Positions 32,547-56,733 of a DNA stretch of 64,000 nucleotides are shown piece after piece. The notes under the pieces were generated by a model. It saw nothing but the letters and a program-made list of their open reading frames with translations, did not search any database and was not told where the DNA came from. The DNA comes from Alienimonas californiensis (GTDB taxonomy: Bacteria > Planctomycetota > Planctomycetia > Planctomycetales > Planctomycetaceae): assembly GCF_007743815.1 (NCBI RefSeq), contig NZ_CP036265.1:1976323-2040322 (forward strand), given 5' to 3'. How positions within the stretch are numbered: the stretch's first letter is position 1; each line of letters begins with the position of its first letter. A program made the translations under genes and the position numbers.

Positions 32547-32577
32547 ACGACGTGGGGTCAATGACTGGGCGTGCGAA

Positions 32578-33834
32578 CTACGCCTTCATCGCCTCGGCGA
32601 GGATCTTGCTGGTGCCGGGACGCATGATGCGCTCGTCGACCTGCTCGCCCTGCTGGAGGGTGGCGCGGACCTGTTTGCCGCTGATGAAGACCGGCTTTTC
32701 GTCCGGGTGGTTCTCCATCAGGTCGACCCGGCCCATGCTGTCGTAGAAGGCGGCGAAGCCGACCTTGATGGGCTGGATCTGCAGGTCGCCGTTCAGGTTC
32801 TCGAAGATCTCCTGGGCGTCGAAGTCGCCCCAAATGGCCGTGCCGTCGGCGAACGGGGCGTCGGCGTGTTTGCGGCCGATGACGATGTGCGTCAGGCCCA
32901 TGTTCTGGCGGTAGATGCCGTGCATCACCGCTTCCTTCGGGCCGCCGTAGAACATCTTGATGTCCAGGCCCAGCAGGATCACGCGGTCGGCGACCTCGCC
33001 GCCGACCTTCTCCCACAGCTCCGCGTCGCTGTCGCCCTCGCCGAGGCCCTTGTCGGCGATCAGCTGCTCGTAGGTCTGCATGCGGATCTCCGCGGAGACG
33101 TCGTCGCTCTTGGTCTCGCCGACCAGCGGGTTCAGCACGGCGCCGGCGTTCTTGCCCTCGCGGAGCAGCGTTTCCAGGCCGTAGACGAGCGCGTACTCGT
33201 GGGCCCGGTGCAGCGGGTTGCGGGTCTGGAAGCCGACGACGGCGTCCCAACCCTTCTCGGCGACGACCTTCCGCACTTCCTTCGGGGAGAGCACGTACTG
33301 GCCGAAGGAGGGGTTCTTCGGCTGGGGCAGGGCCCGCAGCGTGCCGCCGAACAGGTGGGTGGCGTTGGCGTCGCCCTCCATCACCATCTGGCCGCCGGGG
33401 TGGTCGGTGCGCTCGGTGCCGTAGACGGCCTTCACGTATTCGGCCTTGTCCCAGGGATAGACGTCCTCGACGTCCACCGTGGCGACGATCTGGCCGTCCG
33501 GGCCGGTCAGGGCGACGGTCTGACCGGCGAGGACCTTGGTGGACAGTTCCTCGGTCAGCGGGAAGGCGATCGGAATGGTCCAGGCGTAATCGAACCCGTT
33601 GTGGGTGATCACGCTGTCGGAGAGGACCTTGTCGTAGACGGCCTTGGTCATCGGCCCGGTCAGGGGCGAGAGCGTGCCGTCGGCGATCCGGTAGACGCTG
33701 GAGAGGTCCGCGGCGCTGACCGGCACCTGCGGGAGATTCGCCGCGGCCTTCTTGAAGTCCTCGACTTCGGCGGCGGGCACGGTGCGGTCGACGGGTTCGG
33801 CGAGGCCGCCGTGCGGGGGGATGAGGTCGGCCAT
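32578..33834 (-). CDS. sat: sulfate adenylyltransferase (ATP sulfurylase)
   Basis: A 418-residue monofunctional ATP sulfurylase, making adenosine 5'-phosphosulfate from ATP and sulfate. It is the first step of sulfate activation for assimilation or for sulfation. Catalytic motifs are intact: [10 protein letters not shown] at 203-212 and GRKHADAPF at 320-328, with YYDSMG-type [19 protein letters not shown] and metal-region [16 protein letters not shown]. The length matches the bacterial/archaeal Sat form without APS kinase domain. ATG 33834 begins [18 protein letters not shown]; these 18 codons recur at 56600-56653 as an isolated fragment. The polysaccharide cluster begins 374 bases upstream in the opposite direction. 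Confidence 0.96.
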
Positions 33835-34208
33835 GGGATCGGCGGGCGGAGCGCGGGGGTCTGGTGCGATGAGGGCGCGGGAGTGTGGGGCGCCCGCGGC
33901 GGGGCTTCAAGGGCGACGGGGCGGCGGGAGGCCGCAGCCCCGACGGGAGGCGGCCGGGCGGGACGCGGTCCGGCCCGGCGGGACGCGACCTGGGGGAGCG
34001 GGCAGGGTGGGGGATTCTTCCGGAATCCGTCGTCTCGGGGGGTCGTGCGGTTCCGGTCGCTCCGGGAACGGCTAGGATGCCGCCCCCGCGGAGGCGCTGC
34101 ACGGTCCGAATCGGGACCGTACAGTCCGAGGACGCCCCCGCCGGTCCGTCGAGCGGAGCCGCGGCTCCCCCGATGCGAGCCGTCCCGCCGCTCCGTATCT
34201 TGCCCCGT
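33835..34208. other. divergent intergenic region between sat and polysaccharide cluster
   Basis: 374 bases without a gene. TAGGAT at 34073-34078 (forward) could be the promoter of the first cluster operon. Downstream of it, 34101-34120 is an inverted repeat acggtcc-gaatcg-ggaccgt that could be an operator or a leader hairpin. No clear sat promoter is visible. The sat-like similarity with the copy at 56600-56653 stops sharply at the ATG. Confidence 0.45.
34101..34120 (+). promoter_or_regulatory. inverted repeat, possible operator or leader hairpin of the cluster
   Basis: acggtccgaatcgggaccgt has 7-base arms around a 6-base centre and lies 23 bases after TAGGAT (34073-34078), about 90 bases before the first glycosyltransferase start. 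The symmetry is clear; the role is inferred from position. Confidence 0.4.
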
Positions 34209-35639
34209 ATGTTTTCACCGTCGACGGAGGTTCTTGTTGGGACGGACGCCCCCGGTCGGGCGGACGCTCCCGGCCGGCCGGAGATCCGGGCCTCCAAGGC
34301 CCGCGTCCGCCCCGACGCGACGATCGCCGACGGCCGTCCGCTAGCCGACGGCCTGCCGCTCGACGGCTTCCCCCAGCGGCGGGACGTCTCCCGGTTGGGC
34401 GTGGCCCACCTGGGCAAGTACTACGCGCCGGCCCGCGGCGGGATCGAATCGCACGTGCGGGAACTGGCCGCCGGCCTGACGGAGCGGGGGCACCGGGTGG
34501 CGGTGCACGCGGTGAACTGCGGCGGGACGACCTCGGGCAGCGGGCGGTCCGTCACGCTCGGCCGCACCCGCAGCCGGCGGTTCGAGGACGACGGCGTCGC
34601 CGTCACCCTGCACGGCCGGGTCGCGAACCTGATGAAGCTGGACGTCTGCCCGCGGCTGACCGCGGGGGCGAACGGGTTGCTCGTGGGGCCCGCGGGCCGG
34701 CGGGCGACGTTGGGGGCGGGGCTGCGCGAGCCGACCGACGGCTCGCCGGACCTGCTGCATCTGCACGTCCCCAACCCGACGATGATGGTCGCCCTGGCCC
34801 TCAGCCGGTTCGCCGGGCCGACGGTCGTCACCTATCACAGCGACATCGTCCGGCAGTCGCGGGCGGCGGCGCTGCTGCGGCGCCTGGAGCGGCGGGTGCT
34901 CCGCCGGGCGGGGGCGATTCTGGTCTCCAGCGCCGAATACGCCGAAGCCTCGCCGGTGCTGCGGGAGCACGCCGACCGCGTGCGGGTGGTGCCGTTCGGC
35001 ATCGATCTGGCCCGGTTCGCCGGCCTCGACCCGGTCGCGGAGAAGGCCGCGGAGGCCCTGCGCGCCCGGCACCCCGGCCCGCTGTGGGCGATGGTCGGGC
35101 GGCTGGTCTACTACAAGGGGCACGAGGTCGCCGTGCGGGCGTTGCGGAACGTGCCCGGCACGCTGCTGATCGTGGGGGACGGGCCGCTGGCGGAGCGGGT
35201 CGAACGGGTCGCGGAGGAGTGCGGCGTGGCGGACCGAATCGCCTTCCTGCCGAACGCCGACGACGCCGCCGTACGGGTCGCCCTCAAGGCCGCCACCGCC
35301 CTCTGGTTCCCCAGCACCCACCGCAGCGAGTCGTTCGGGATCGCCCAGATCGAGGCGATGGCCAGCGGCTGCCCGGTGATCAACACCGCGATCCCCGGCT
35401 CCGGCGTGCCGGCGGTCAGCGTGGACGGCGTCAGCGGGCTGACGGTCGCCCCCGGCGACCCCGCCGCCCTGGCCCGGGCCGCGAACCGGCTGGCGGAGTC
35501 GCCCTCGATGCGCAACGAACTGGCCGACGGCGCCCGCCGCCGGGCCTTCGCGGAGTTCGATCGCGACTTGATGCTGGGCCGCGTCGAGGCGATCTACGAG
35601 GAACTGACCGCGGGGGCGGGCCGTCATGCCCCCCGCTGA
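34209..35639 (+). CDS. GT4-family glycosyltransferase
   Basis: A 476-residue cytoplasmic or peripheral glycosyltransferase, first gene of the forward block. About 60 disordered residues precede the GT-B N-terminal domain, which begins LGVAHLGKYYAPARGGIESH (donor loop GG and acceptor region) with PDLLHLHVPNP and VVTYHSDIVRQ. The C-terminal nucleotide-sugar domain has AMVGRLVYYKGHEVAVRAL, LIVGDGPLAERV and the E-x7-E motif ESFGIAQIEAMASGCPV. It should add one sugar to a lipid-linked intermediate; donor and linkage are unknown. The start is ATG 34209; a shorter start within the disordered tail is possible. It overlaps the next gene by 14 bases. Confidence 0.88.
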   Translation: MFSPSTEVLVGTDAPGRADAPGRPEIRASKARVRPDATIADGRPLADGLPLDGFPQRRDVSRLGVAHLGKYYAPARGGIESHVRELAAGLTERGHRVAVHAVNCGGTTSGSGRSVTLGRTRSRRFEDDGVAVTLHGRVANLMKLDVCPRLTAGANGLLVGPAGRRATLGAGLREPTDGSPDLLHLHVPNPTMMVALALSRFAGPTVVTYHSDIVRQSRAAALLRRLERRVLRRAGAILVSSAEYAEASPVLREHADRVRVVPFGIDLARFAGLDPVAEKAAEALRARHPGPLWAMVGRLVYYKGHEVAVRALRNVPGTLLIVGDGPLAERVERVAEECGVADRIAFLPNADDAAVRVALKAATALWFPSTHRSESFGIAQIEAMASGCPVINTAIPGSGVPAVSVDGVSGLTVAPGDPAALARAANRLAESPSMRNELADGARRRAFAEFDRDLMLGRVEAIYEELTAGAGRHAPR

Positions 35640-36963
35640 CCCGCCGCCCGCCGCGGGGGGGGCGCCGTTCCGACTGCTCCACGTCTACAGCGGGAATCTG
35701 TACGGCGGCGTCGAGCGCCTGCTGGAAACGCTGCACGCCTGCGGGTCGGAGCAGGACGGCGGCGACGGGGCGGGGGGCGGGCTGCGGCAGGACTTCGCCC
35801 TCTGCTTTCGCGGTCGGCTGAGCGAACGGCTGCGGGCCGCCGGCGCCCGGGTCACGGAGCTCGGCCGCGTGCGGCGGGTCGAACCGTGGACCGCCCTGTG
35901 GGCCCGGCGTCGATTGGCGGCGGCGTTGCGGTCCGCGGCGGCCGCGGGCGAGCCCTACGACGCCGTCCTGTTTCATTCCTTCTGGTCCTTGGCCCTGCTG
36001 GGCACCGGTTTGCGGGCGGATTCAGGGGAAGGCCGCGGGTCCGCGATTCCCCGCCTGCTGTGGGTGCACGACGATCCGAACCCGTCTCACTGGACGTTCC
36101 GCGGGGCGGTGCGGGCCGGGGCGGACGGGGCGATCTTCAACAGCGAGTTCGTCCGCGGCCGCCCGGCGTCGCGGGCGTTGCTGAAGGGGCTGACGATCTC
36201 CGAGGACCGCGTCGCCGTGGTGCGACCTCCCGCGCCGGCGCCCCCGCCCGCCGCCGCCGAACGTCGCGCCGCGCTGCGGGCCGAACTGGGGGCCGAACCG
36301 GACGACGTCCTGATCCTCACCGCGGCCCGGTTCGAGGCCTGTAAGGGGCATGAGCTGCTGCTGGACGCCCTCGGTCGGCTGGCGAACGAACGCCGCTGGA
36401 TCTGCGCCTTCGCCGGCGACGCCCAGCGGCCCGCGGAGCGGGCGCGGGTCGCGGCGCTGCGAACCCGGGCCGAACGACTGAACGTCGGGAACCGGCTGCG
36501 GTGGCTGGGGCACCGGGACGACGTGCCGGACCTGATGGCGGCCGCGGATCTGTATTGCCAGCCGAACGTGAGCCCGGAGGCCTTCGGCCTGACCTTCGTC
36601 GAAGCCCTGTACGCCGGCTGCCCGGTGGTGACGACGGCGATCGGCGGCGGCCGGGAGATCCTGCGGGCCGGGCTGCCGGAACCGGGGCTGCCGGAACCGG
36701 GGCTGCCGGCGCTGCACGGTCCCGCGGGGCGGCTGACCGGGATCGACCCGGCGGCGGTCGCCGAGGCCCTGCGGAGCCTGATCGTCGATCCGGCCCGCCG
36801 GCGCCGGCTGGCCGCCGCCGGTCCGGCGCGGGCGGCGGCTCTGTGCGATCCGCAGGCCCGGCTGGCGGAGTTGGAGGCGTTCTGCCGCCGGACGGCCGGT
36901 CGCCCGGCGGTCGCTCCGCTGCGCCCGGCCGCGACGCGGCGCCCGACCCCCGCGGCGCCATGA
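35626..36963 (+). CDS. GT4-family glycosyltransferase
   Basis: A 445-residue GT-B enzyme. It starts with FRLLHVYSGNLYGGVERLLE, and a middle segment LLWVHDDPNPSHWTF reads as the domain hinge region. The C-terminal domain shows ILTAARFEACKGHELLLDAL, LRWLGHRDDVPDLMAAAD and EAFGLTFVEALYAGCPVV. A short duplicated GLPEPGLPEPGLPALHG insert sits after the E-x7-E motif. ATG 35626 lies inside the 3' end of the preceding glycosyltransferase, and its stop overlaps the polymerase start by ATGA, indicating one operon. The transferred sugar cannot be predicted. Confidence 0.88.
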   Translation: MPPADPPPAAGGAPFRLLHVYSGNLYGGVERLLETLHACGSEQDGGDGAGGGLRQDFALCFRGRLSERLRAAGARVTELGRVRRVEPWTALWARRRLAAALRSAAAAGEPYDAVLFHSFWSLALLGTGLRADSGEGRGSAIPRLLWVHDDPNPSHWTFRGAVRAGADGAIFNSEFVRGRPASRALLKGLTISEDRVAVVRPPAPAPPPAAAERRAALRAELGAEPDDVLILTAARFEACKGHELLLDALGRLANERRWICAFAGDAQRPAERARVAALRTRAERLNVGNRLRWLGHRDDVPDLMAAADLYCQPNVSPEAFGLTFVEALYAGCPVVTTAIGGGREILRAGLPEPGLPEPGLPALHGPAGRLTGIDPAAVAEALRSLIVDPARRRRLAAAGPARAAALCDPQARLAELEAFCRRTAGRPAVAPLRPAATRRPTPAAP

Positions 36964-38597
36964 GTTCCCACCTCGCCCCGCCGCCGCCCGCCGCGGCTCT
37001 CGCCCGCCGCCGGTCGCCGTCCTCGCGGTCGTCAGGCAGGCGCTCGTCCGGTGGGGGGGCGTCGGCCCCACGGTCGCCGGGCGGGCGGTCGTCCCGCCGC
37101 CGCAAGTCCGTCGCGGCGGCCGCCTCCGCCGGCAGTTCGGCGTCCGCGGCGGCGCGGGCGTGGTGGACGCACCCCGGGGTGTGGCTGCCGCTCGCCCTCA
37201 CGCTGTTCCCCGCGATCCTGATTCTGCCGGGCACGCAGTCGCTGCGATTGCCGTTGCGGATGCTGTCCTACGGAATCGCGGCGGCGCCGGCGGCGTGGTA
37301 CGGGGTGAGCGTGCTCGGCCGGCGGGCGCACCCCTCGGCGGCGTGGCTGGCGGCGACGTTCGCCCTGCTGTCGGTGATGATTCTGCACCCCACGACCAAC
37401 GGTCTGCTGGTGGCGATGGCCCAGATCGGGCTGTACGCCGCCGTCGCCGCCCCCCTGTTCTGGATGCCCCGCGTCCGCACCGGGCCGGAGGATCTGTCCC
37501 GCAGCCTGCTGGTGTTCCTGGGCTGCGTGGGGGTGAACTCCGCGGTCGGGGTGTTGCAGGTCTACGCCCCGGACACGTTCATGCCGGCGGAGTTCTCCCG
37601 CGTGGTGACCGAAAGCGAGTTCGGTCTGGACGGGGTCAGCTACGAGGGGCCGGACGGCCGCCGCATCATCCGCCCGCCGGGACTGTTCGACTCTCCCGGG
37701 GCGGTCTCCGGCGCCGGGATGGTCGCGGGCATCTTCGGGCTGGCGGCGCTGATGGACGGCCGCTCCCTGCGGGTGCGGGCGACGGGGGCGCTGTTCGCCC
37801 TCTGCGGGCTGGCGGCGATTCTGCTCACGCAGGTCCGCACCGCGCTGGCCGTACTCGCGGGGATGGTCGTCGTTTACTTCGGCGTCATGCTGATGCGGGG
37901 GCGGGTGCGGCAGGTCGCCTGGGGGGCGTCGTTGGGCGGGGTCGCCGCGGCGGCCGGCGTGGCGGTGGCCTTCACGCTGGGTGGAACCAGCGTCTCCGGT
38001 CGCTTCGCCACCCTGCTGGACGACGACCCGGCCTCCGTCTTCGCCAACTCCAGCCGCGGCGGGTTCGTCCGGCAGGCCCTCACCGAGCAGATCTTCGACT
38101 ACCCCGTCGGCGCCGGCCTGGGCCGCTGGGGGATGATGCGGCGGTACTTTGGCAACCCGTACAACTTCAGTTCCCCGCCGATCTGGGCGGAGACGAACCT
38201 CAACGGCTGGATCCTCGACGGCGGCGTCCCCCTCCTGTTATTGAACCTCACGGCGCTAGGGGCGCTGTTCGCCTACCTCTACCGCACGGCCCGGCGGCAC
38301 CCGGCGGCGCCGATCCGACAGGCGGCCACGCTGGTCCTCGCGGTCTGCGCCGGGTGGAGCACGATGATCACCAGCTACACGCCGTTCTGCTCCACGCTGG
38401 GCATTCAGTTCTGGTTCCTCGCCGGCCTGATCTGCGCCGCGGAGAACAGTTATCGGGACGCCACCGCCAAGCCCGCGGCCCCCAAGCCCGCGGCCCCCAA
38501 GCCCGCGGCCCCCAAGCCCGCAGCCCCCAAGCCCGCAGCCCCCAAGCCCGCAGCCCCCAAGCCCGCAGCCCCCAAGCCCGCGGCGGTCCGCCGGTGA
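36960..38597 (+). CDS. O-antigen polymerase/ligase-like membrane protein (Wzy_C family)
   Basis: A 545-residue polytopic inner-membrane protein. A basic Ser/Arg-rich cytoplasmic tail of 65 residues precedes about ten hydrophobic helices (VWLPLALTLFPAILILPG, AAWLAATFALLSVMIL, LLVFLGCVGVNSAVGVL). The Wzy_C core is ATGALFALCGLAAILLTQVR followed by TALAVLAGMVVVYFGVML. The large periplasmic loop RIIRPPGLFDSPGAVSGAG is typical of ligases/polymerases. The C-terminus is a low-complexity KPAAP repeat tail. It should polymerise flipped repeat units or ligate them to an acceptor. It lies in the cluster's first operon. ATG 36960 overlaps the previous stop. Confidence 0.82.
   Translation: MSSHLAPPPPAAALARRRSPSSRSSGRRSSGGGASAPRSPGGRSSRRRKSVAAAASAGSSASAAARAWWTHPGVWLPLALTLFPAILILPGTQSLRLPLRMLSYGIAAAPAAWYGVSVLGRRAHPSAAWLAATFALLSVMILHPTTNGLLVAMAQIGLYAAVAAPLFWMPRVRTGPEDLSRSLLVFLGCVGVNSAVGVLQVYAPDTFMPAEFSRVVTESEFGLDGVSYEGPDGRRIIRPPGLFDSPGAVSGAGMVAGIFGLAALMDGRSLRVRATGALFALCGLAAILLTQVRTALAVLAGMVVVYFGVMLMRGRVRQVAWGASLGGVAAAAGVAVAFTLGGTSVSGRFATLLDDDPASVFANSSRGGFVRQALTEQIFDYPVGAGLGRWGMMRRYFGNPYNFSSPPIWAETNLNGWILDGGVPLLLLNLTALGALFAYLYRTARRHPAAPIRQAATLVLAVCAGWSTMITSYTPFCSTLGIQFWFLAGLICAAENSYRDATAKPAAPKPAAPKPAAPKPAAPKPAAPKPAAPKPAAPKPAAVRR
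38469..38583. repeat. 15-base tandem repeat coding KPAAP
   Basis: Eight near-identical units of aagcccgc(g/a)gccccc at the 3' end of the polymerase gene, in frame. Four central units use gca in place of gcg. Slippage would change tail length in five-residue steps without frameshift. Confidence 0.9.
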
Positions 38598-38661
38598 CCT
38601 CCGCCGCGGAATCCGTCCTCGCTTTCGACGCGGATTTTGAACGTCGACGATCCGACCCGTG

Positions 38662-39432
38662 ATGAACGGCACCCTGCAATCGCCCGCCGCCCGCGCCCGC
38701 CCGCTGCGTCCGGCGTCCCCGATGAGCCCGGCGGCGTACGTCGGCAAGGACGTGACGTCGCTGTTGGACGTCGGCTGCAACGTGGGCGGCTGGCTGCGGG
38801 ACTGCGCCGCCCGACACCCCGCGGCGTCGTTGGCGGGCGTGGAAATTAACGAGGCGGCGCTGCAAAAGGCCCGGGCGGCCCTGCCCGCGGCGGACCTGCG
38901 TCACGCCGGCGCCGAGCGGCTCCCCTTCGCCGACGAGTCTTTCGACTACGTCACCTGCATGGAGGTGTTGGAACACCTGCCCGCCCACCTGCGGCCGACG
39001 GCGTTCCGGGAGATGCGCCGCGTGCTCCGGCCCGGCGGGCGGTTAATTTTCAGCGTGCCCCACGCCGGCTGGTTCGCCTGGCTGGACGCGGGCAACCTGC
39101 GGCACCGCTTTCCGCGGCTCTATCGCTTCGCCCTCAAACGGGGGGGCCGCGACGCGACCTACGAACAGGCGGGGCAGGAGGTGGAATGGCACCAGCATTT
39201 CACGCTCGCCGAATTGGAACGGCTCGCCGGGGACGGCTGGCGCCGGGCGGTCGTGCGCCGCGGGGGGCTGGTCCTGCATCCGTTGATGGACTGCCTGAGC
39301 TGGCCGTTCTATCGCCGCGACGCGGCGCATCATCCGATCCGTCGCGGCCTCGGACGCATTGCGGCCTGGGACTATCGGTTCGACTTCGGCCCGGCGTCGT
39401 ACGGCGTCCTGATCGTGCTCGAGCGGATTTAA
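38662..39432 (+). CDS. class I SAM-dependent methyltransferase
   Basis: A 256-residue Methyltransf_11/25-type enzyme. The SAM-binding motif I is TSLLDVGCNVGGWL, followed by AGVEINEAALQKAR, AERLPFADESFDYVTCMEVL and EHLPAHLRP, and the post-II motif RVLRPGGRLIFSVPH. The C-terminal part has QEVEWHQHFTLAELERLAG. It may methylate a sugar of the polymer or its precursor. GTG 38659 lies one codon before the preferred ATG 38662. The gap from the polymerase stop is 64 bases. No partner overlaps, but it shares the strand and operon direction with the following glycosyltransferase. Confidence 0.85.
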   Translation: MNGTLQSPAARARPLRPASPMSPAAYVGKDVTSLLDVGCNVGGWLRDCAARHPAASLAGVEINEAALQKARAALPAADLRHAGAERLPFADESFDYVTCMEVLEHLPAHLRPTAFREMRRVLRPGGRLIFSVPHAGWFAWLDAGNLRHRFPRLYRFALKRGGRDATYEQAGQEVEWHQHFTLAELERLAGDGWRRAVVRRGGLVLHPLMDCLSWPFYRRDAAHHPIRRGLGRIAAWDYRFDFGPASYGVLIVLERI

Positions 39433-39439
39433 TCCGCCG

Positions 39440-40705
39440 ATGCCCGCCCCGCCGCCCGACCGCTCCCGCAGTCGCATTGAACGCTACGCCCTGGTCGCGG
39501 GGGACTTCCGCCTGCACGGGGGGATGGACCGGCCGAATTACGAACTCGCCTGGCACCTCGCCGAACGCGAGGGGGCGACGGTCGAACTGGTCGCCCATCA
39601 CGTCGCGGCGCCGCTGGCGGAGCACCCGCGGGTGCGTTGGACCCGGGTGCCGCGGCCGGGCGGGCGGGCGCTGCTGGGGCGGCCGCTATTGGCGCGGGCT
39701 GGGCGGCGGATCGCCCGGGAGGTCGCCCGGGCCGGGGGGCGGACGATCGCGAACGGGGCGAACTGCGCCCCGCTGGTCGGCCCGCCCGCCGCCGCCGCGA
39801 GCGACGTGAACTGGGTGCATTATCTGCACGCCGCCGCCCCGCCGCCGCGGCCCGCGACCGGCCGGGGCGGGCTGCGACCGCGGCTCGTGGCGGCCCGCGA
39901 CCGCCGGGCGGAGCGGCGGGCGCTGCGGGCCGCGGGGCTGATCGTCGCCGACTCCGACCGCCTCGCCGGTGAGATTACGGAGCGGCTCGGCGTGCCGGCC
40001 GACCGCGTGCACCGGATTTATTACGGCGTGGACCCCGCCGCGTTTCGGCCCCCCGATCCGGCGGAATGCTCCGCCGCCCGGCTCGCATTCGGCATATCGA
40101 ACGACGGGGACGCTGGCGAGCGGCCCGTCGTGGCGTTCGTCGGCGGGCTAGGGGCGGACCGCCGCAAGGGGTTTGACGTACTCTATGACGCCTGGCGGGA
40201 CCTGATGCGCTCCGACGCGTGGCCGCGGAGCGCCCGGCTGCTGGTCGCCGGGTCGGGGTCGGAACTGCCGAGCCTGCGGGCGGCGGCGGAGCGGGACGGA
40301 CTGGCCGATTCGATCCGGTTCCTCGGGCAGACCGACCGCGTGCCGGAGCTGTTGGCGGCGGCGGATCTGCTGGTCGCCCCGACGTTCTACGAACCCTACG
40401 GGCAAGGCGTGCACGAGGCCCTCTGCCGCGGCGTGCCGGCGTTGGTCACGGAGACGGCCGGCGTCGCGGAACGGTATCCCGCGGACCTCCGCGACCTGCT
40501 CCTGCCGGACCCGCCGGACGCCGCGACCCTCGCGGCGCGGTTGCGGGCGTGGCGGGCGAACCGGGCGGAGCTCGCGGAGCGGACGCTCGTCTTCGCGGAG
40601 GAACTCCGCTCCCGCGATTGGGAGGCGATGGCGGCGGAGTTCGTCGCCCTCCTCCGTCGTCACCCGCCGGCGGCCGCCGGCTTCACTTCGAATGCGTCGT
40701 TATGA
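39440..40705 (+). CDS. GT4-family glycosyltransferase
   Basis: A 421-residue GT-B enzyme. The N-terminal domain opens RYALVAGDFRLHGGMDRPNY with ELVAHHVAAPLAEHPRVRW and a later VNWVHYLHAA. The C-terminal domain shows AFVGGLGADRRKGFDVLYDA, SIRFLGQTDRVPELLAAADL and EPYGQGVHEALCRGVPAL, the family's E-x7-E. Starts with ATG 39440, seven bases past the methyltransferase stop, and ends overlapping the FkbM gene by TTATGA, so it is in the operon. It adds a sugar to the growing repeat unit; the identity is unknown. Confidence 0.88.
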   Translation: MPAPPPDRSRSRIERYALVAGDFRLHGGMDRPNYELAWHLAEREGATVELVAHHVAAPLAEHPRVRWTRVPRPGGRALLGRPLLARAGRRIAREVARAGGRTIANGANCAPLVGPPAAAASDVNWVHYLHAAAPPPRPATGRGGLRPRLVAARDRRAERRALRAAGLIVADSDRLAGEITERLGVPADRVHRIYYGVDPAAFRPPDPAECSAARLAFGISNDGDAGERPVVAFVGGLGADRRKGFDVLYDAWRDLMRSDAWPRSARLLVAGSGSELPSLRAAAERDGLADSIRFLGQTDRVPELLAAADLLVAPTFYEPYGQGVHEALCRGVPALVTETAGVAERYPADLRDLLLPDPPDAATLAARLRAWRANRAELAERTLVFAEELRSRDWEAMAAEFVALLRRHPPAAAGFTSNASL

Positions 40706-45222: not shown

Positions 45223-45254
45223 GGGGCGGGGGCGGGCGGGGAAGGCAGTTCGAA

Positions 45255-46355: not shown

Positions 46356-46441
46356 GGATCGAAAACGGAGGGGGGCCGGGCGCGGGGAAGGGGCGCCGAG
46401 GACGGGCGTCGGGGAGAACCGCGGGCCCGGGGGGCGGGGCG

Positions 46442-48178: not shown

Positions 48179-48300
48179 GCGGCGGGGCGAAACGGGGCCG
48201 ACGACCGGCGACCGGGGGGAGACGAAACGCGGGGGGCGACGGTTCGAATGTTCGTCGCGACCCGGCAGCGGGAAGCCGGCGACCGGGAGCCGGCGGCAGG

Positions 48301-49452
48301 TCAGGCGCGGAGCGCCGCCCTCAAACGGTCGGCGATCGCCGGCCAGGCGAACTGCGCATCGTAAAGCGCCCGGCCGCCGGCGGCGATGACGGCCCGCCGG
48401 GCGGGGTCGTCCAGCAGTTCGCCGACCGCCGCCGCGAACGGGGCCGGTTCCGGGGGCGTCAGCCGCAGCGCCGTGCCGTCGGCGTCGCGGAGCAGGCCGT
48501 CGGTCAGGAAGGCCCGCGTGCCGACCGTCGCCACGCCCTGCTGCAAGCCGGCAATCATCGAGCCCCGCCGCGTCGAGACCCCGTCCACGAACGGGGCCAG
48601 CGCCAGGTCCATCGCTGCAAACTGCCGGGCCGCCTCCGCGGCGGGCAGCCGGCCGGCGTCGATCACCCGCCCGCCCAGCGCCGCCCGCACCGCGGCGCCG
48701 TGCGGGCCGACGTACAGCAGCGCGGCCTCGGGCGACCGCTCCCGCGCCGCCGCCGCCGCCGCGTCCACCAGCGGGAGCAACCGGGAAGCGTGCGCCGACC
48801 CGAACAGCCCCAGCACGGGGACGTTCGGCCCCAGGTTCCACCCCGCCCGCAGCGCCTCCCGCAGCACTGCCTGATCGGCGGCCCCGCCCGCGACCTGCGG
48901 CAGGTTCGAGCCGACCGGCAGGTGGACCGCCCGCCGGCGGGGATGGCGGCGGCGGAATCGTGCGGTCCAGGCCTCGATCGAGAAGAACGTCACGTCCGCC
49001 AACGCCGTCACCGCCGCGAACTGGGGACGCTGCCACAGTGACATCGCCGCGGTCTTGGCGTCGGCGAAGGGGACGAACAGTTCGTGCACCATCACGGCCA
49101 CCCGCGTCCCCGGGCTGGCCCGGCGACAGGCCCGCAGGGCGAGCGGCAACCGCGGGGCGAATCCCCGGCGGCCGTAGCTGAACGGGTTGTACTGCACGAC
49201 CAGCCAGTCCGGCCGCCGCCGCCCCACCGCCGCCGCCAGCCCGCCCCGCAGCAGGTTTTCGCAGGGCACGATCTCCACGCCCGGGATCGGATCGGCCGGG
49301 TTCGACCCCGTGAGGACGCCGATTGTTCCCCCGTCCCCCGCTGCCTCGTCCACGGCCGATAGGGCCGCGGCCAGTTGGGCGGTGTAGTCGCCGATGCCGT
49401 CCGGCGCCGGCGGCAGGAGGGGGAAGAACAGGTCGATCCGGGGCGACGACAT
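48301..49452 (-). CDS. glycosyltransferase, GT-B type
   Basis: A 383-residue enzyme: PRIDLFFPLLPPAPDGIGDY at the N-terminus (donor glycine turn DGIGDYT), WLVVQYNPFSYGRRGFAPRL, and C-terminal VLGLFGSAHASRLLPLVDAA, LYVGPHGAAVRAALGGRVID, with MDLALAPFVDGVSTRRGSMI and AGLQQGVATVGTRAF replacing the usual E-x7-E. This resembles GT4-like enzymes from planctomycete polysaccharide loci. ATG 49452 lies 133 bases from the divergent FkbM gene at 49586, so a bidirectional promoter lies between (TATGGT at 49522-49527). First gene of the reverse operon. Confidence 0.8.
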   Translation of the reverse strand: MSSPRIDLFFPLLPPAPDGIGDYTAQLAAALSAVDEAAGDGGTIGVLTGSNPADPIPGVEIVPCENLLRGGLAAAVGRRRPDWLVVQYNPFSYGRRGFAPRLPLALRACRRASPGTRVAVMVHELFVPFADAKTAAMSLWQRPQFAAVTALADVTFFSIEAWTARFRRRHPRRRAVHLPVGSNLPQVAGGAADQAVLREALRAGWNLGPNVPVLGLFGSAHASRLLPLVDAAAAAARERSPEAALLYVGPHGAAVRAALGGRVIDAGRLPAAEAARQFAAMDLALAPFVDGVSTRRGSMIAGLQQGVATVGTRAFLTDGLLRDADGTALRLTPPEPAPFAAAVGELLDDPARRAVIAAGGRALYDAQFAWPAIADRLRAALRA

Positions 49453-49521
49453 CGGGCGGGGGCAGCGGGACGCGGGTGGGGTTCTGTCCGGCGTTCCCTT
49501 CCGACGCCCCGGATCAGCCCA

Positions 49522-49527
49522 TATGGT
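49522..49527 (+). promoter_or_regulatory. possible -10 element (TATGGT) for the third cluster block
   Basis: TATGGT lies 58 bases before ATG 49586, in the 133-base divergent region that must serve both the reverse and forward operons. Confidence 0.35.
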
Positions 49528-49585
49528 CCGCCGAAGCGAATCGGACACAACCGCCGGGCCGCCCGTCCGTCCTTCCGCCTGTCCC

Positions 49586-50503
49586 ATGTCGCACGCACTC
49601 CTTTGGATCGCCGGTAAGCTGCCCCGCGGCCTGATCCGGGCCGTGTCGCGCTCCCAGTGGCGGCACCCGTTGATCCGCAAAGGCGTGGAACGTCTCTACG
49701 ACCTGTTCCGCGGCCGCGACGGCGTGATCCAGGGGGGCGTCGGCGCCGGCCTCCGGTTCAACCCCGGGCCCTCGCACGCCGGCTACCTGCTCGGGACGAC
49801 CGAGCCGGAGATCCAGCGCCTGCTCGCCGAACTGATCAACCCGGGCGACACCGTCGCGGACGTCGGGGCGAACGTCGGTTACCTCACCACGCTCGCCGCC
49901 CGCCTCGTCGGGGGGGAAACCAGCGGCGGGGGGCGGGTGGTGGCGATCGAACCGTTGGAAGAGAACGTCCGCTGGATCCGGCACAACGTCGCTCTCAATG
50001 CGGGCGAGGAGCGGTTCGGCCGCATCGACGTTCGCTGCGAAGCGCTGGGCGCCGCGGACGGGACGGCGACGTTTCAGCTGTCGGAGGTGTCCACCTGGGG
50101 ACGGTTGGAATCCGCCGGGTCGGCGCCCAATCAGCCGGCCGGCACGCGGCAGGTGCCGGTGCGGTCCCTCGACTCCCTGCGGGCCGAGGGCGTCTTCGGG
50201 GAGCCGCCCTCCTTGGCGCTGTTGAAGATCGACGTCGAAGGGGCGGAGGCGGACGTGCTGGCGGGCGGACGGGAGACGCTGCGGGCGCTCCGTCCGCTGT
50301 TGCTGGTCGAACTGCACGGCACCGCCCCCGCGGTCGCGGCGGAACTGGACCGGGCCGGCTACCACGCCGCGGTCGTCGGCGGGGCGGGCGTCGCGGCCGC
50401 GGACGCCCCCTGGGCGGCCTACCTGCTGGCCGCCCCGCGGGACGACGCCGCGCTGTGCGCCCGGGTCGATCGCCTTTGCGCCGCGGCGGCGGAGACGCGG
50501 TGA
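49586..50503 (+). CDS. FkbM-family methyltransferase
   Basis: A 305-residue FkbM protein. N-terminal helices (HALLWIAGKLPRGLIRAVSR) precede the SAM domain: DTVADVGANVGYLTTLAARL, VVAIEPLEENVRWIRHNVAL, EALGAADGTATFQLSEV, and ALLKIDVEGAEADVLAGGRE. It probably O-methylates a sugar of the repeat unit. The N-terminal 50 residues extend beyond the smaller FkbM protein encoded at 40702. Its last codons overlap the GTG start of the next glycosyltransferase by four bases. Confidence 0.9.
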   Translation: MSHALLWIAGKLPRGLIRAVSRSQWRHPLIRKGVERLYDLFRGRDGVIQGGVGAGLRFNPGPSHAGYLLGTTEPEIQRLLAELINPGDTVADVGANVGYLTTLAARLVGGETSGGGRVVAIEPLEENVRWIRHNVALNAGEERFGRIDVRCEALGAADGTATFQLSEVSTWGRLESAGSAPNQPAGTRQVPVRSLDSLRAEGVFGEPPSLALLKIDVEGAEADVLAGGRETLRALRPLLLVELHGTAPAVAAELDRAGYHAAVVGGAGVAAADAPWAAYLLAAPRDDAALCARVDRLCAAAAETR

Positions 50504-51726
50504 GCGGCGCCGTTCCCCCCCGCGAGCTTGGCCCCCGCGAGCCCGGCCCGAACCGTCCCCTGCGCGTGCTGACGGCGGGGCACTCCTACGTCACGGCGGC
50601 GAATCGGGCGATCGCCCGGGAGGTCGCCCGCGATCCGGCGTTCGAGGTCACCGTCGCCGCCCCCGCGGTCTATCACGGCGACTTTCGCCGTGAGGTCTGC
50701 GAGCCGGAGCAGGCCGGCTCCCCGCTGCGGATCGAACCGATCCCCGCCCGCTGGACGCGGCGGGTGCACGTCTTCCGCTACAACGCCCGCGTCCTGCGGC
50801 GCCTGACGGCCGGCGGCGGATTCGACGCGGTGCACGCCTGGGAGGAGCCCTACATCCTCGCCGGCTATCAGATCGCCAAAGCCGCCGCCGCGGCCGGCGT
50901 GCCCTACGGGTTCCGCAGCGCCCAGAGCCTCAACAAGACCTATCCCCCGCCGTTCCGCCAGTTCGAGCGCGCCGCCCTCCGCACCGCCGCCGGCTGGGTG
51001 GCGGGCGGGTCGCTGGTGTTCGAGAACCTCGTCTCCCGCGGCTACCCGGAACGGACGGGGCGGATCATCACCCTCGCCGTGGAGACCGCCCGCTTCCGCC
51101 CGCTCCCCCCGGAGGCGAAGCGGGCCGTGCGGGAGGAACTGGGCCTGCCGGGACCGCTGATCGTGCAACTGGGCCGGGTGAACGAGGACAAGGGCGTCCG
51201 CGTGTTGCTGGCGGCGCTGGAGGGGCTGGGCGAGCGTCCGTGGGGCCTGCTGATGCTGGGGAACGGCCCGTTGGAGGGGGAGGTTCTCCGCTGGGCGGAG
51301 GCCCGCGGCTGGGGCGACCGGGTGCGCGTCGGCGCCGTGCGGCACGAGGAGGTGCCCCGCCGTCTGGCCGCCGCCGATCTGCTGGTCGCCCCCAGCCAGA
51401 CGACGCCGCACTGGAAGGAGCAGTTCGGCCGGATGCTGATCGAAGCGTTCGCCTGCGGGGTGCCGGTGATCGGCAGCGACAGCGGGGAGATCCCGCGGGT
51501 CGTCGGCGACGCCGGGCGGATCGTGCCGGAGGCGGACGCCGCCGCCTGGACCCGGGTGATCCGAGAACTGCTGGACGACCCCGCCGCCCGGGCCGACCTC
51601 GCCGAGCGGGGGTTGCAGCGCTGCGGGCAGTATTCCGTCGCCGCGGTGGCGGAGCGCTGGAAGGATTTCTACCGGGACCTCGCCGCCGCCGGGTCGGCCG
51701 GGGCGGCGGCCGGGGCCGCCGGATGA
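50500..51726 (+). CDS. GT4-family glycosyltransferase
   Basis: A 408-residue GT-B enzyme: LRVLTAGHSYVTAANRAIAR, DAVHAWEEPYILAGYQIAKA, PYGFRSAQSLNKTYPPPFRQ, then IVQLGRVNEDKGVRVLLAAL and EQFGRMLIEAFACGVPVIG with SDSGEIPRVVGDAG. GTG 50500 overlaps the FkbM stop (GTGA), and the stop overlaps the next ATG by four bases, so translation is coupled on both sides. The TTPHWKEQFG stretch before E-x7-E is typical of WcaI/WbuB-like enzymes. Donor unknown. Confidence 0.88.
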   Translation: MSGAVPPRELGPREPGPNRPLRVLTAGHSYVTAANRAIAREVARDPAFEVTVAAPAVYHGDFRREVCEPEQAGSPLRIEPIPARWTRRVHVFRYNARVLRRLTAGGGFDAVHAWEEPYILAGYQIAKAAAAAGVPYGFRSAQSLNKTYPPPFRQFERAALRTAAGWVAGGSLVFENLVSRGYPERTGRIITLAVETARFRPLPPEAKRAVREELGLPGPLIVQLGRVNEDKGVRVLLAALEGLGERPWGLLMLGNGPLEGEVLRWAEARGWGDRVRVGAVRHEEVPRRLAAADLLVAPSQTTPHWKEQFGRMLIEAFACGVPVIGSDSGEIPRVVGDAGRIVPEADAAAWTRVIRELLDDPAARADLAERGLQRCGQYSVAAVAERWKDFYRDLAAAGSAGAAAGAAG

Positions 51727-52937
51727 GCGACGCGCCCCTGCGGCTGGCGCTGGTCGACGACTTCCCCGAGGAGGGCTGGACGAGCATGGACCTGTGCGCC
51801 GACCGCCTCGCCGCGGAATGGGCCGCCGACCCACGCTTCGCCCCGCAGCGGATCTGCCCGCCGTTCCGAACCCCCTTCGGCCGCTTCGCCCCGCTGGCGC
51901 CGGGCCGCCGCGGCAAGCGGGCGGCGGCGAACGCGGACCGGCTGTGGAACCGCGTCCGCACTTACCCGGCCCACCTCGCCCGGATCGCGGGGCGGTTCGA
52001 CCTGTTCCACATCGTGGATCACTCCTACGCCCACCTGACCCATCACCTGCCGGCGGATCGCACGGGGGTTTTCTGCCACGATCTGGACGCCTTCCGCAGT
52101 CTGCTCGACCCGGCCGCCGAGCCCCGCCCCCGCTGGTTCCGGGCCCACGCCCGCTCCGTCGCCGAGGGGCTGGGCCGGGCGGCGGCGGTATTCGTCAACT
52201 CCCGGCAGACGCGGCGGGAACTGGTCGCCAGCGGCTTCGCCCAAGCCGACCGCGTGGCGCTCGCCCCGCTGGGCGTCTGCGAGGAGTTCGCCCGCCAGTC
52301 AGCGAACGCCGCCGCGGAGGCCGCCGGCGCCGCGGAACTCGCCGCCCGGGACCTGCCCGCCGGGCCGTTCCTGTTGCACGTCGGCTCCTGCATCCCGCGG
52401 AAGCGGATCGACGTGCTGTTGGAAGTCTTCGCCGCGGTGCGGGCCGAACGGCCCGAGCTGACGCTCGTGCAGGTCGGCGGCATCTGGACCGAAGGCCAGC
52501 GGGAGACGTTGGAGCGTTTGCGCCTCGGTGATAGCGTTCGGCAGCTCTCCGGACTGAGTCGGACGGCGTTAGCGACGCTCTACCGCCGGAGTCAGACGGC
52601 GTTACAGCCGAGCGCCTCTGAGGGGTTCGGCCTGCCGGTGGCCGAGGCGCTGGCCTGCGGGGCGAAGGTGATCGCCAGCGATCTGCCCGTCCTGCGGGAG
52701 GTCGGCGGACCGCTCGCCACGTTCGCCCCCGTCGGCGACGTGCCGGCGTGGCGGGCGGCGACGCTGGCCGCCCTCGACGCCCCGCCGCCCGATCCAGCCC
52801 TCGCCGACGCGCATCTGCGTCAGTTCACCTGGGAGGAGCACGCCCGCCGCATCGGCGCCGTCTACGAACGGCTGGCCGCGGGCGAACCCTTCGCCGACCT
52901 CGTCGCCGCGGACGGGGTGCCGGGGGAGTCGGTTTGA
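51723..52937 (+). CDS. GT4-family glycosyltransferase
   Basis: A 404-residue GT-B enzyme. N-terminal domain LRLALVDDFPEEGWTSMDLC, FDLFHIVDHSYAHLTHHLPA and VFCHDLDAFRSLLDP. C-terminal domain FLLHVGSCIPRKRIDVLLEV, TLVQVGGIWTEGQRETLERL, and SASEGFGLPVAEALACGAKV, with ASDLPVLREVGG after it. It starts on an ATG overlapping the upstream stop by four bases and ends overlapping the TTG start of the next gene. It probably transfers one sugar; identity unknown. Confidence 0.88.
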   Translation: MSDAPLRLALVDDFPEEGWTSMDLCADRLAAEWAADPRFAPQRICPPFRTPFGRFAPLAPGRRGKRAAANADRLWNRVRTYPAHLARIAGRFDLFHIVDHSYAHLTHHLPADRTGVFCHDLDAFRSLLDPAAEPRPRWFRAHARSVAEGLGRAAAVFVNSRQTRRELVASGFAQADRVALAPLGVCEEFARQSANAAAEAAGAAELAARDLPAGPFLLHVGSCIPRKRIDVLLEVFAAVRAERPELTLVQVGGIWTEGQRETLERLRLGDSVRQLSGLSRTALATLYRRSQTALQPSASEGFGLPVAEALACGAKVIASDLPVLREVGGPLATFAPVGDVPAWRAATLAALDAPPPDPALADAHLRQFTWEEHARRIGAVYERLAAGEPFADLVAADGVPGESV

Positions 52938-54247
52938 ACGGGACCGGAGCCACCGGGGCCGGCCCCCGCCTGCTGTTCCTCAGCCCGGTCGGGACGATCG
53001 GCGGGGCGGAGCGGGTGTTGCTCGACCTGTTGACGGGGGTCCGAACCGGGCTGCCGGACGCGTCGCTGACCCTGCTGTGCGGGGGGGAGGGGTCGCTGCT
53101 CGAGGCGGCCCGGGATCTCGGCGTGAGCGCCCGGGCGGTCCCGCTGCCGGCGGCGGCGGCCCGGCTGGGCGACAGCCCGGACTCACCCGGCGACACGAAC
53201 CGCGGCGGGGCTCAGAGCCGGGTCGCCCGCCTCGCCCGCTTCGCGGCGGCGGGGCCGGCCGTGACACGGGGCGTCCTCCGCTGGCGGGCGGCGATCCGGG
53301 CGGAGCGGCCGGACCTGATCCATTCCAACGGCCTGAAAACCCACCTGCTGACCGCCGCGGCGCTGGCCGGCCGGCGGGCCGGTCGGCGACCGCCGGTCGT
53401 CTGGGCGGTGCACGATTTCTACTCCGAACGCCCCCTCGCCGGCCGGGCGCTGCGGCGGGCGGGGCGGGGCGTTTCCGCGTTGGCGTGCGTCTCCGCCGCG
53501 GTCGAGCGGGACGCGCTCACCCTCCTGCCGAACGCGGCGACCCGGGTGATTTTGAACGGCGTCGACCTGACCCGCTTCGCCCCCTGCCCCGAAGCGGGGG
53601 ACGGGGCGGCCTTGGACGCCGCCGCCGGCTTGCCGCCGGCGCCCGCGGGGACGCTGCGGGTTGGGCTGGCGGCGACCTACGCCCGTTGGAAGGGGCAGGA
53701 TGTGTTGATCGAGGCCGCCGCCCGGCTGCGGGCCCGGCGGCCGGACTTGGCGGTCCGCTGGTTCGTCGTCGGCGGACCGATCTACGCCACGGCGGCCCAG
53801 TGGACGCGGGGGGAGTTGGAAGCACTCGCCGAGCGGGCGGGGGTGGCGGATGCCGTCGGCTTCGTCCCGTTCCAATCCGACATGCCCGCGGCGTACCGGG
53901 CGCTGGACGTGGCGGTGCACGCCAGCGTGCGGCGGGAGCCGTTCGGGCTGACGATCGCGGAGGCGATGGCCTGCGGCCGCCCGACGATCGTCGCCGCGGC
54001 CGGCGGGGCGGCGGAACTGTTCACCGACGGCGAGGACGCCCTCGGCCACTCGCCCGGCGACGCGGTCGCCCTCGCGGTCGCGGTCGAACGCCTCGCCGAC
54101 GACCCGGCCCGGCGGGCTCGTCTGGGAGCCGCCGCCCGCCGCACGGCGGAACGCCGCTTCGACCGCGATCGCGTGGGATCGCAGTACGCGGCGCTCTATT
54201 CCGAACTGCTCGGCGCCCACGCGGCGCCCGGCCGGGGGGAGACCTGA
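52934..54247 (+). CDS. GT4-family glycosyltransferase
   Basis: A 437-residue GT-B enzyme: RLLFLSPVGTIGGAERVLLD, LIHSNGLKTHLLTAAALAG, VVWAVHDFYSERPLAGRALR, GVSALACVSAAVERDALTLL, then RVGLAATYARWKGQDVLIEA and EPFGLTIAEAMACGRPTIV. Start by TTG 52934, which overlaps the previous stop (TTGA); no ATG or GTG lies in frame close to the domain. A 30-residue insert (GDSPDSPGDTNRGGAQSR) interrupts the N-terminal domain. The next gene begins two bases after its stop. Confidence 0.85.
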   Translation: MNGTGATGAGPRLLFLSPVGTIGGAERVLLDLLTGVRTGLPDASLTLLCGGEGSLLEAARDLGVSARAVPLPAAAARLGDSPDSPGDTNRGGAQSRVARLARFAAAGPAVTRGVLRWRAAIRAERPDLIHSNGLKTHLLTAAALAGRRAGRRPPVVWAVHDFYSERPLAGRALRRAGRGVSALACVSAAVERDALTLLPNAATRVILNGVDLTRFAPCPEAGDGAALDAAAGLPPAPAGTLRVGLAATYARWKGQDVLIEAAARLRARRPDLAVRWFVVGGPIYATAAQWTRGELEALAERAGVADAVGFVPFQSDMPAAYRALDVAVHASVRREPFGLTIAEAMACGRPTIVAAAGGAAELFTDGEDALGHSPGDAVALAVAVERLADDPARRARLGAAARRTAERRFDRDRVGSQYAALYSELLGAHAAPGRGET

Positions 54248-54249
54248 CG

Positions 54250-55221
54250 ATGATCGATCGCCTGTGGAAACCGTGGTTCGTGCGTCGCCCGGAGCGGTTC
54301 GCCCGCCGGATCTGGACCGCGGTCGCCCCGCCGGCCCCCGGGGTGCGGCCGCTGCGGACCGCCTGGGGGGCGACGATCGCCGCGGACCCGACGAAGGACA
54401 TCGGCCGGAGCGTCCTGACGACCGGGGTGTACGACCTCACGCTGTCCGAAGTCGTGGCCCGGCTGACGCCGCCCGGCGGCCGGGCGATCGACGCCGGGGC
54501 GAACGTGGGCTACGTGTCAGTGCTGGCGGCCCTGTGCGCCGGCCCCGGGGGACGGGTCGACGCCTACGAGCCGCACCCGGACCTCGCCCCTGTCGCGGAG
54601 CGAAACCTCCGCGGGGCCGCGGACGCGGGGCCGCTCGCCCGGGTCGCGGTGCATCCGGTCGCATTGGGGGAGCGGCCGGGCCGGGCGGACCTAATCCTGC
54701 CGGCGGGGTTCGGCGCCAACGACGGTCTCGCCCGGCTCGCGGAGGGGGCGTCCGGGGGTTCCGAGCAGACCGGGGAGCGGCGGGTCTCCGTGGACGTCCG
54801 CCGGCTGGACGACGAGTTGAATGCGGAGGGCGCCGGCGGGGCGGTCGACCTGTTGAAGATCGACGTGGAGGGGCACGAGGCCCCGCTGTTGCGGGGGGCG
54901 GCGGAGGCGCTGGCGGCGGGGCGCATCCGGCACGTGCTGTTCGAGGACCACGCGGTCCACGACGCCGCCGGCAGCGAGGTCACGCGGCTGTTGGAGGAGG
55001 CCGGGTTCACCCTGTTTTCGTTGGGCCGCACGTTTCACGGGCTGCACGTGGAACCGCTGGCGGCGGGACGGCTGGCGAGTTCCTCCGAACCCCCCAACTA
55101 CCTGGCGACCCGCGATCCCGAAGCGGCGCTCGCGGCGCTGCGGCCCCCCGGCTGGCGCGTGCTGGAGCGCCGGTTCCCGGCCCGCCCGGCAGCCCGCGGG
55201 CGGGCAGAGGGACGCCGGTGA
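54250..55221 (+). CDS. FkbM-family methyltransferase
   Basis: A 323-residue FkbM protein: GRAIDAGANVGYVSVLAALC (SAM motif), DAYEPHPDLAPVAERNLRG, PVALGERPGRADLILPAG, VDLLKIDVEGHEAPLLRG. The C-terminal 90 residues add HVLFEDHAVHDAAGSEVTRL and a Pro/Arg-rich end. It is the third FkbM in the cluster, distinct in length from those at 40702 and 49586. ATG 54250 is three bases from the previous stop, and the stop overlaps the acyltransferase GTG by four bases. Confidence 0.9.
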   Translation: MIDRLWKPWFVRRPERFARRIWTAVAPPAPGVRPLRTAWGATIAADPTKDIGRSVLTTGVYDLTLSEVVARLTPPGGRAIDAGANVGYVSVLAALCAGPGGRVDAYEPHPDLAPVAERNLRGAADAGPLARVAVHPVALGERPGRADLILPAGFGANDGLARLAEGASGGSEQTGERRVSVDVRRLDDELNAEGAGGAVDLLKIDVEGHEAPLLRGAAEALAAGRIRHVLFEDHAVHDAAGSEVTRLLEEAGFTLFSLGRTFHGLHVEPLAAGRLASSSEPPNYLATRDPEAALAALRPPGWRVLERRFPARPAARGRAEGRR

Positions 55222-56432
55222 CGGCCGCCGATCTCGCTGGACTCGGCACCCCGCTGCGTCCCGGCGACCCGCCGCCGCCCGCCCCGGGGCGCCCCTGGCC
55301 GCTGCCGGCGGACGCCGAACCGGCCGCCGCCCCGCGGCGCCCGCCGGCGGTGGACAGCCTCACCGCGGTGCGGGGGTTGGCGGCGGTGTGGGTCGTACTG
55401 TTCCACTTCAAAGCCGATCTCCACGCTCTGTTGCCCCTCGACTGGGCGGCCCCGCTGATCGCCCGCGGGCACCTCGCGGTCCCGCTGTTCTTCGTACTCA
55501 GCGGGTACGTGCTAGCGCTGAACTACGCCGCCGCGTTCGGGCGGGGGCTGACGGCGTCCGGGACGAAGGAGTTCCTGCTGCGTCGGTTGATCCGCATCTA
55601 TCCGCTGCACCTCGCCACGCTGCTGGGCACCGCCGTGATGGCGGCGGTCGGCACGCGCCTGGGCGGCACGCCGGACCCGGAAAAGTACGGCCTCGTCGAC
55701 TTCCTGCTGAACCTCGCCCTGGTGCACGCCTGGGTTCCGTTCTACGAGCAGGCCTGGAACTATCCGTCCTGGTCGATCAGCGCCGAGTGGTTCGCCTACC
55801 TGCTGTTTCCCCCGCTGGCCGCGGGGCTGTGGCGGGTCTCGGCGGGGAGTCGGGGGCGGGCGGCGGTCGGCCTCGTCGCGGGGCTGGCGCTGGCGGCGAC
55901 GTTGGCGATCGCCCTGTTCTGGGGCGCGTTCGGGCTGCCGTACGCGATGCCAGCGTCCGTCGTCGGTCCGTTCACCGTGGGGGCGGCCGCGTGGGTGTTT
56001 CAGGCCCGGGCGACGAACCCGTGGCGACCGCCGGGGTGGACGCTGTGGGCGGCGGTTCTGCTGCTGGTCGTCGGCGCCTCCCTGCCGGGCTACCGCCGGG
56101 CCGCGGCGGCGACGCTCATCGCGTCCGTCGGCGTGGTCGTCTTGTTGGGAGCGGCCGGGGACCGCAGCCCGCGGGCGTTCCGGTGGGGGCCGCTGGCGGC
56201 GCTGGGGGAGGCGTCCTACGCCCTGTACCTCACCCACGCGATGGCCCAGAAGGTCCTCTACACCCTGTTGCCGGCGGGGCGCTTCGACGAGTCCGCCCTG
56301 GCGGTGCGGCTGGGGGTCATCGCGGCGTACGTCGCCGTGATCGCCGCCGCGGCGTGGCTGGCGCAGGCGACGATCGAACGCCGGGTCGTGCCGTGGCTGC
56401 GGCGGCGTGCGACCGTGCGACGGCCGGGGTAG
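55218..56432 (+). CDS. acyltransferase 3 (OafA/YrhL-type) membrane protein
   Basis: A 404-residue polytopic acyltransferase. About 45 proline-rich residues precede SLTAVRGLAAVWVVLFHFKA with the conserved R-G-x-A-A and HF pair. Further motifs are HLAVPLFFVLSGYVLALNYA, LIRIYPLHLATLLG, NYPSWSISAEWFAYLLFP and ASYALYLTHAMAQKVLY. It should add acetyl or other acyl groups to the sugar residues from acyl-CoA at the membrane. GTG 55218 overlaps the FkbM stop. It is the last gene of the third operon; the decayed sat fragment lies 170 bases downstream. Confidence 0.92.
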   Translation: MTAADLAGLGTPLRPGDPPPPAPGRPWPLPADAEPAAAPRRPPAVDSLTAVRGLAAVWVVLFHFKADLHALLPLDWAAPLIARGHLAVPLFFVLSGYVLALNYAAAFGRGLTASGTKEFLLRRLIRIYPLHLATLLGTAVMAAVGTRLGGTPDPEKYGLVDFLLNLALVHAWVPFYEQAWNYPSWSISAEWFAYLLFPPLAAGLWRVSAGSRGRAAVGLVAGLALAATLAIALFWGAFGLPYAMPASVVGPFTVGAAAWVFQARATNPWRPPGWTLWAAVLLLVVGASLPGYRRAAAATLIASVGVVVLLGAAGDRSPRAFRWGPLAALGEASYALYLTHAMAQKVLYTLLPAGRFDESALAVRLGVIAAYVAVIAAAAWLAQATIERRVVPWLRRRATVRRPG

Positions 56433-56599
56433 CTTCGGGAGAGCGAGGATTGGCGTAGCCAAACCTCAGGCGACCGCCTGCGACCGGCGAACCCCGATGA
56501 CGAGTGGCCCCAACTGGTTCTCGATCTGCGGAGCGGCAACCTGACGACCGTCGTCGGCAGCGAACCGCCCCGGCCCTACCTCAACGCCGCGGGGCGACT

Positions 56600-56653
56600 G
56601 GTGCGGTCGACGGGCTCGGCGAAACCGCCGTGCGGCGGGATGAGGTCGGCCAT
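56600..56653 (-). pseudogene. sat: isolated 5' fragment of sat (first 18 codons)
   Basis: The reverse frame reads [18 protein letters not shown], then diverges and stops six residues later. It matches the first 18 codons of the intact sat gene (33781-33834) at 50 of 54 bases; the four differences give one amino-acid change (L to F). Both copies have the same orientation. Similarity ends exactly at the ATG. The fragment lies just beyond the polysaccharide cluster and cannot encode an enzyme. Confidence 0.85.
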
Positions 56654-56733
56654 GTCGGCGGGGATCCAGTCTTGGGATCCGTGGCGCGGGAGGGTCGTGG
56701 ACGGCCGCCGTCGCTTCAAGGCGACCGCGGAGA

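Follow-up and report, generated by a model that had tools for sequence, protein, structure and literature searches.

A putative second sat gene, truncated on the far side of a polysaccharide cluster in Alienimonas californiensis

Introduction

Why does the start of a housekeeping gene stand on both sides of a polysaccharide cluster in Alienimonas californiensis CA12? The gene is sat, encoding sulfate adenylyltransferase, and the stretch of DNA analysed here, which we call the window, comprises 64,000 nucleotides (contig NZ_CP036265.1, positions 1,976,323 to 2,040,322, assembly GCF_007743815.1). Coordinates without a genome label refer to the window. According to the original prediction, the cluster integrated at the sat start or was exchanged through it, brought a new 5' end that restored sat, and left the native start stranded. 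The comparison genome was that of A. chondri LzC2 (G001; L061 = NZ_WTPX01000053.1), so that two Alienimonas genomes were compared in all.

Results

The doubled start of sat

The two places at which the sat start occurs are:

32578-33834, minus strand: intact sat (sulfate adenylyltransferase, 418 amino acids), 92% identical to the A. chondri sat at the amino acid level
56600-56653, minus strand: candidate second sat start, truncated, comprising the first 18 codons; 50 of 54 bases identical to intact sat and 47 of 54 to A. chondri sat

Full-length sat proteins from the same family share 69-77% identity with the protein encoded in the window. The repeat of the first 18 codons on the same strand was confirmed, and the longest identical run between the two copies measures 17 bases. 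Neither the sat protein nor the DNA surrounding the fragment, used as queries against the whole A. californiensis CA12 genome, matched anywhere other than at these two places, which rules out the suggestion that the 54-base match is a common motif found at many loci. The body of a second sat survives nowhere in this genome.

Four codons differ between intact sat and the fragment: CCC>CCG, GGC>GGT, CTC>TTC (Leu to Phe) and GAA>GAG. In the GAA>GAG codon the fragment carries the A. chondri base, and for this reason the change probably fell in intact sat and not in the fragment. The silence of three of the four differences had been taken as a sign of two once-functional sat genes. This argument alone is not significant (P = 0.065 under random substitution); the same reading is favoured instead by the promoter and the better-kept coding start described below. 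Coding differences per 54 bases amount to five between intact sat and A. chondri, four between intact sat and the fragment, and seven between A. chondri and the fragment. Four-fold sites differ to a like extent between fragment and intact sat (2 of 11) and between the two species (42 of 210). In a 54-base tree with outgroups included, the likelihood is equal for a fragment that is sister to intact sat, sister to A. chondri sat or outside both. Judged from these bases, the fragment is too short for dating and phylogeny cannot decide the origin of the sat doubling.

The leader of the fragment

The fragment is less isolated than had been assumed, since a probable sat promoter core lies upstream and the remnant of another gene is joined directly to its left. 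The homology extends upstream of the ATG into a core of 38 bp, which starts CCTTGAAG and ends CCCGCGC:

33875-33912, minus strand: putative promoter core of intact sat (TTGAAG, 17-base spacer, CACACT), identical to A. chondri at 33 of 38 bases
56684-56721, minus strand: putative promoter core of the truncated second sat, identical to the intact core at 27 of 38 bases and to the A. chondri core at 29 of 38

The spacing between core and ATG is equal at the fragment, at intact sat and at A. chondri sat. Only two such cores exist in the 64 kb; a scan of 128,050 positions on both strands gave no equally good match elsewhere to either the intact core or that of A. chondri. The second box of the fragment core reads GACCCT as opposed to CACACT in intact sat. 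Because a TTGA-type box with similar layout precedes sat in many other planctomycetes, the core is most likely the sat promoter. Rfam gave no match.

Between intact sat and the fragment, the leader core differs at 11 of 38 positions and the coding start at 4 of 54 (Fisher P = 0.009). A neutral-copy model, in which change falls on both sides in the leader and mainly on one side in the coding part, yields P = 0.006-0.03, the model being a simple one. Since the leader diverged more than the coding start, the data speak less for a recent dead copy than for a second copy that worked for a long time before it was truncated, or for gene conversion between two intact sat genes. The affinity of the fragment is split: its coding sites are nearer to intact sat and its promoter-core sites nearer to A. 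chondri. The 5' untranslated stretch of the fragment aligns slightly better with that of intact sat.

The flanks of the fragment

On either side of the fragment lie the following features:

56466-56594, plus strand: remnant of gene b, corresponding to residues 204-246 of 286 of the A. chondri gene (tblastn 45% over 42 amino acids, E 8e-7)
56746-57090, plus strand: c, a predicted small membrane protein gene upstream of the sat remnant (GC3 0.84-0.97)
57087-57419, plus strand: d, a predicted small membrane protein gene with a distant paralogue elsewhere in both Alienimonas genomes
57428-57955, minus strand: p, a YflT-domain gene (Pfam PF11181), 81% identical in A. chondri at the amino acid level; the flank common to A. 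chondri starts with this gene

Gene b (L031:4208-5068 in A. chondri) belongs to no Pfam family. In A. chondri it comes after the glycosyltransferase gene, and p lies there about 20 bp from a further gene, a. Searched across the whole A. californiensis genome, b matched nowhere but at the remnant (E = 4e-6). Because the remnant stops 5 bases before the sat fragment, we read 56466-56653 as two broken genes that point towards each other and have been fused.

Codon composition indicates that c and d are probably real genes. They form an overlapping pair (56746-57419), to which a distant paralogous pair corresponds at a second conserved Alienimonas locus (G000:C1:2515458 and, in A. chondri, G001:C92:3290); outside Alienimonas the pair has almost no relatives. 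A recent copy of c-d from elsewhere in the genome is ruled out by the paralogues, which are only about 30% alike. In strains without the cluster, relatives of c and d had been expected to precede sat directly, but none of 59 genomes, a set that includes no close outgroup, has them there or has a relative of c near sat. Further to the right, 58075-58107 holds a GC-rich element of about 30 bases that recurs at some 25 other places in the genome and many times in A. chondri, and resembles a dispersed REP-type repeat.

The polysaccharide cluster

The cluster between the two sat starts consists of:

34209-35639, plus strand: GT0, glycosyltransferase family 4 (Pfam PF00534/PF13439), the first cluster gene, with N-terminus MFSPSTEVLVGTD
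35626-36963, plus strand: GT1, glycosyltransferase (Pfam), its body 62-64% identical to the glycosyltransferase beside A. chondri sat
36964-56432, no strand assigned: rest of the cluster, with glycosyltransferases, FkbM and other methyltransferases, a pyruvyl transferase and an acyltransferase (Pfam)

This glycosyltransferase-rich cluster adjoins the conserved housekeeping gene sat, as judged by Pfam and by the conservation of sat. The claim that exactly the cluster lies between the repeats holds only when one disregards the b remnant and the roughly 0.4 kb that separate sat from GT0. The reported lack of an integrase agrees with our search for tyrosine recombinases, which gave no PF00589 match in the window.

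The core order GT0-GT1-...-GT51-GT52 (34209-56432 in the window) is kept in planctomycetes of another family (G047:C1:2385317-2405763 and G043:C4:69797-86550) and in a member of the same family as Alienimonas (G025:C36:304672-326723), and is partly kept in G058 (G058:C179:33545-46089). This comparison rests on Pfam-supported genes only, other open reading frames among the queries probably having unverified starts or frames. The open reading frame 37160-38662 was rejected as a cluster gene, being in the wrong frame (GC3 0.5-0.6); the likely gene lies in the frame of 36501-38597. Since other planctomycetes keep this order, GT0 and GT1 are to be counted as part of the cluster, which we regard as an old unit. 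Its presence is patchy within the family and across planctomycetes, and no sat was found near it in the stretches read of the outside genomes.

Tandem repeats occur within genes at 47341-47508 and 38474-38593, their units being 12 and 15 bases long (AAPKP units ending a cluster gene). Elsewhere in the window, long near-palindromes at 3196-3262 and 28138-28202 have arms of the GAGCCCGAAGCG..CGCTTCGGGCTC type, with relatives in A. chondri.

The locus in Alienimonas chondri

To the left and right of the cluster, the window and the A. chondri contig are colinear over 12105-25810, 29892-30946, 32514-33920 (sat and its leader), 35680-36909 (GT1) and 57425-60064. Between GT1 and p the A. chondri contig has only b and a. 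A DNA search with the cluster minus its GT0-GT1 end located none of this remainder in the A. chondri genome, the GT51 protein had no match there, and there was no trace of the second sat fragment, c or d.

The lone glycosyltransferase gene of A. chondri (L031:5065-6507) starts MFAPSTEVLAGTD and runs on into the body of GT1. Over 60 bases its start shares 47 with that of GT0, whereas the second-best site in the A. chondri contig shares 31. We interpret this gene as a chimera, a GT0 start on a GT1 body, produced by deletion. Given the chimera, the cluster must have stood beside sat already in the common ancestor, before the species split, and A. chondri must have lost it by deletion. The same flanks and the one chimeric glycosyltransferase left between them speak for loss and not for replacement by another cluster.

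The sat leader of A. chondri matches that of the intact A. californiensis copy, and along the gene there is no step in identity between the two sat genes, hence no mosaic, with one relative compared. A recent arrival of the cluster at sat in A. californiensis is ruled out by this shared leader together with the chimera. Nor did a new 5' end restore sat in recent time, as had been proposed, given that the intact start and leader are common to both species and sat is not a mosaic.

Discussion

The start of a sat gene on the far side of the cluster is, in our view, somewhat more probably than otherwise the truncated 5' end and promoter of a once-functional second sat (sat2). We deduce from the comparison that sat2 was complete and functional, and likewise the order in which events took place. 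In the Alienimonas ancestor the order would probably have been sat - GT0 - GT1 - rest of cluster - b - (a) - sat2 - (c - d) - p, with sat2 oriented like the surviving sat and the positions of a, sat2, c and d being guesses. In A. californiensis, a deletion would have fused b after residue 246 to sat2 at codon 18, so that the end of b, all of gene a and the sat2 body went missing. A. chondri would have lost, through separate deletions, sat2-c-d, the whole stretch between GT1 and b, and the GT0 body, whose removal left the GT0 start attached to GT1. A truncated second sat thereby requires two separate losses near b-a-p. The doubling itself could stem from single-crossover insertion of a cluster-bearing molecule or from tandem duplication of the whole stretch, since both would give the bracket. 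Bracketing sat duplicates fit arrival by homologous crossover at sat and tandem duplication equally, and, provided that sat2 existed, we put forward the single-crossover insertion only tentatively.

Alternatively, once the species had separated, templated insertion during break repair might have placed a local copy of about 150 bp, the sat start with its leader, at b-a in A. californiensis, and no second full sat would ever have existed. Only 18 codons and the leader remain, b-a-p of A. chondri lacks any trace of sat, the coding part of the fragment is nearer to intact sat (4 differences) than to A. chondri (7), and its 5' untranslated stretch is best aligned with the intact one, all as expected for such a copy. 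A recent non-coding copy should, however, diverge alike in leader and coding part, whereas 11 of 38 and 4 of 54 positions differ, and the fragment core is further from intact sat than the A. chondri core is (27 against 33 of 38). We consider this explanation unlikely, though one to be reckoned with.

The original prediction could also be moved back to a time when the two species had not yet separated: a single crossover at sat would have taken in a cluster-bearing molecule, which brought the sat start now in use, and the native start would have been stranded beside c-d-p. Such an insertion would yield exactly this bracket in the same orientation, and it agrees with a promoter core that groups intact sat with A. 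chondri (33 of 38) and sets the fragment apart, with the patchy occurrence of the cluster in the family, and with the common exchange of polysaccharide loci via conserved flanking genes (PMC6249986). Against it, c-d stands next to sat in no relative, intact sat is not a mosaic, the clusters of the outside genomes lack sat in the stretches read, and the b remnant lies inside the bracket, so that b would have to be incoming as well. We consider the older insertion a doubtful explanation. Homologous exchange at sat may have taken place in the common ancestor. Likewise improbable is the entry of a complete polysaccharide locus into the Alienimonas chromosome by recombination with sat as its target, with paired functional sat genes long kept around it and the stub as the fossil of the native copy.

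A site-specific element using the 54 bases as att site is very improbable: direct repeats do bracket a gene cluster absent from the sister species, but the window holds neither a tyrosine recombinase nor a tRNA, PF00589 is missing between genome positions 1,498,582 and 2,311,645 with the nearest match about 0.27 Mb past the right end of the window, the repeat is simply a protein-coding start conserved in planctomycete sat genes, and part of the cluster was kept as the A. chondri chimera, so that it did not depart as a unit.

The truncated second sat remains our preferred reading, and we take the remnant to be a fossil of an old local rearrangement, not the end of a still-mobile element. The 54-bp repeats have no evident current role. 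RecA-driven excision of the cluster through them is unlikely because their longest identical run of 17 bp falls below the minimum usually quoted for RecA-dependent exchange.

In planctomycetes, whose surface-polysaccharide loci have received little study, this is a readable fossil of the coming and going of such a locus next to a housekeeping gene. The comparison with A. chondri also illustrates that an apparent insertion, as judged from two genomes, can be the reverse; the direction that is firm here is loss, via a deletion that made a chimeric glycosyltransferase. We regard the finding as an informative but ordinary piece of genome history.

Nothing close to an identical case was found in the literature, and three kinds of known system invite comparison. 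Tandem duplication followed by deletion leaves truncated gene duplicates, and the 5' stub with its promoter, fused to the remnant of another gene, resembles these with no difference that would separate the Alienimonas case. Campbell-type insertion by a single crossover leaves a direct repeat of the target gene; a repeat of the target gene in the same orientation on both sides of the insert, with one copy degenerate, is found here too, but the second copy in Alienimonas comprises only 54 bp and a promoter, and the ends of the inserted molecule are untraceable. An empty site of the kind expected for such an insertion was not found: in A. chondri c-d is missing and some of the cluster is still present, and c-d stands next to sat in 0 of 59 relatives. 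Polysaccharide loci are exchanged by homologous recombination through conserved flanks at dexB/aliA in pneumococcus and galF/gnd in Klebsiella (PMC6249986, PMC5850285). In contrast to these loci, the flanking gene in Alienimonas is doubled with one copy broken, and exchange between strains is hypothetical, with two genomes compared. What the Alienimonas locus shares with them is a fast-changing, glycosyltransferase-rich cluster beside a conserved housekeeping gene, the presence of which differs between close relatives.
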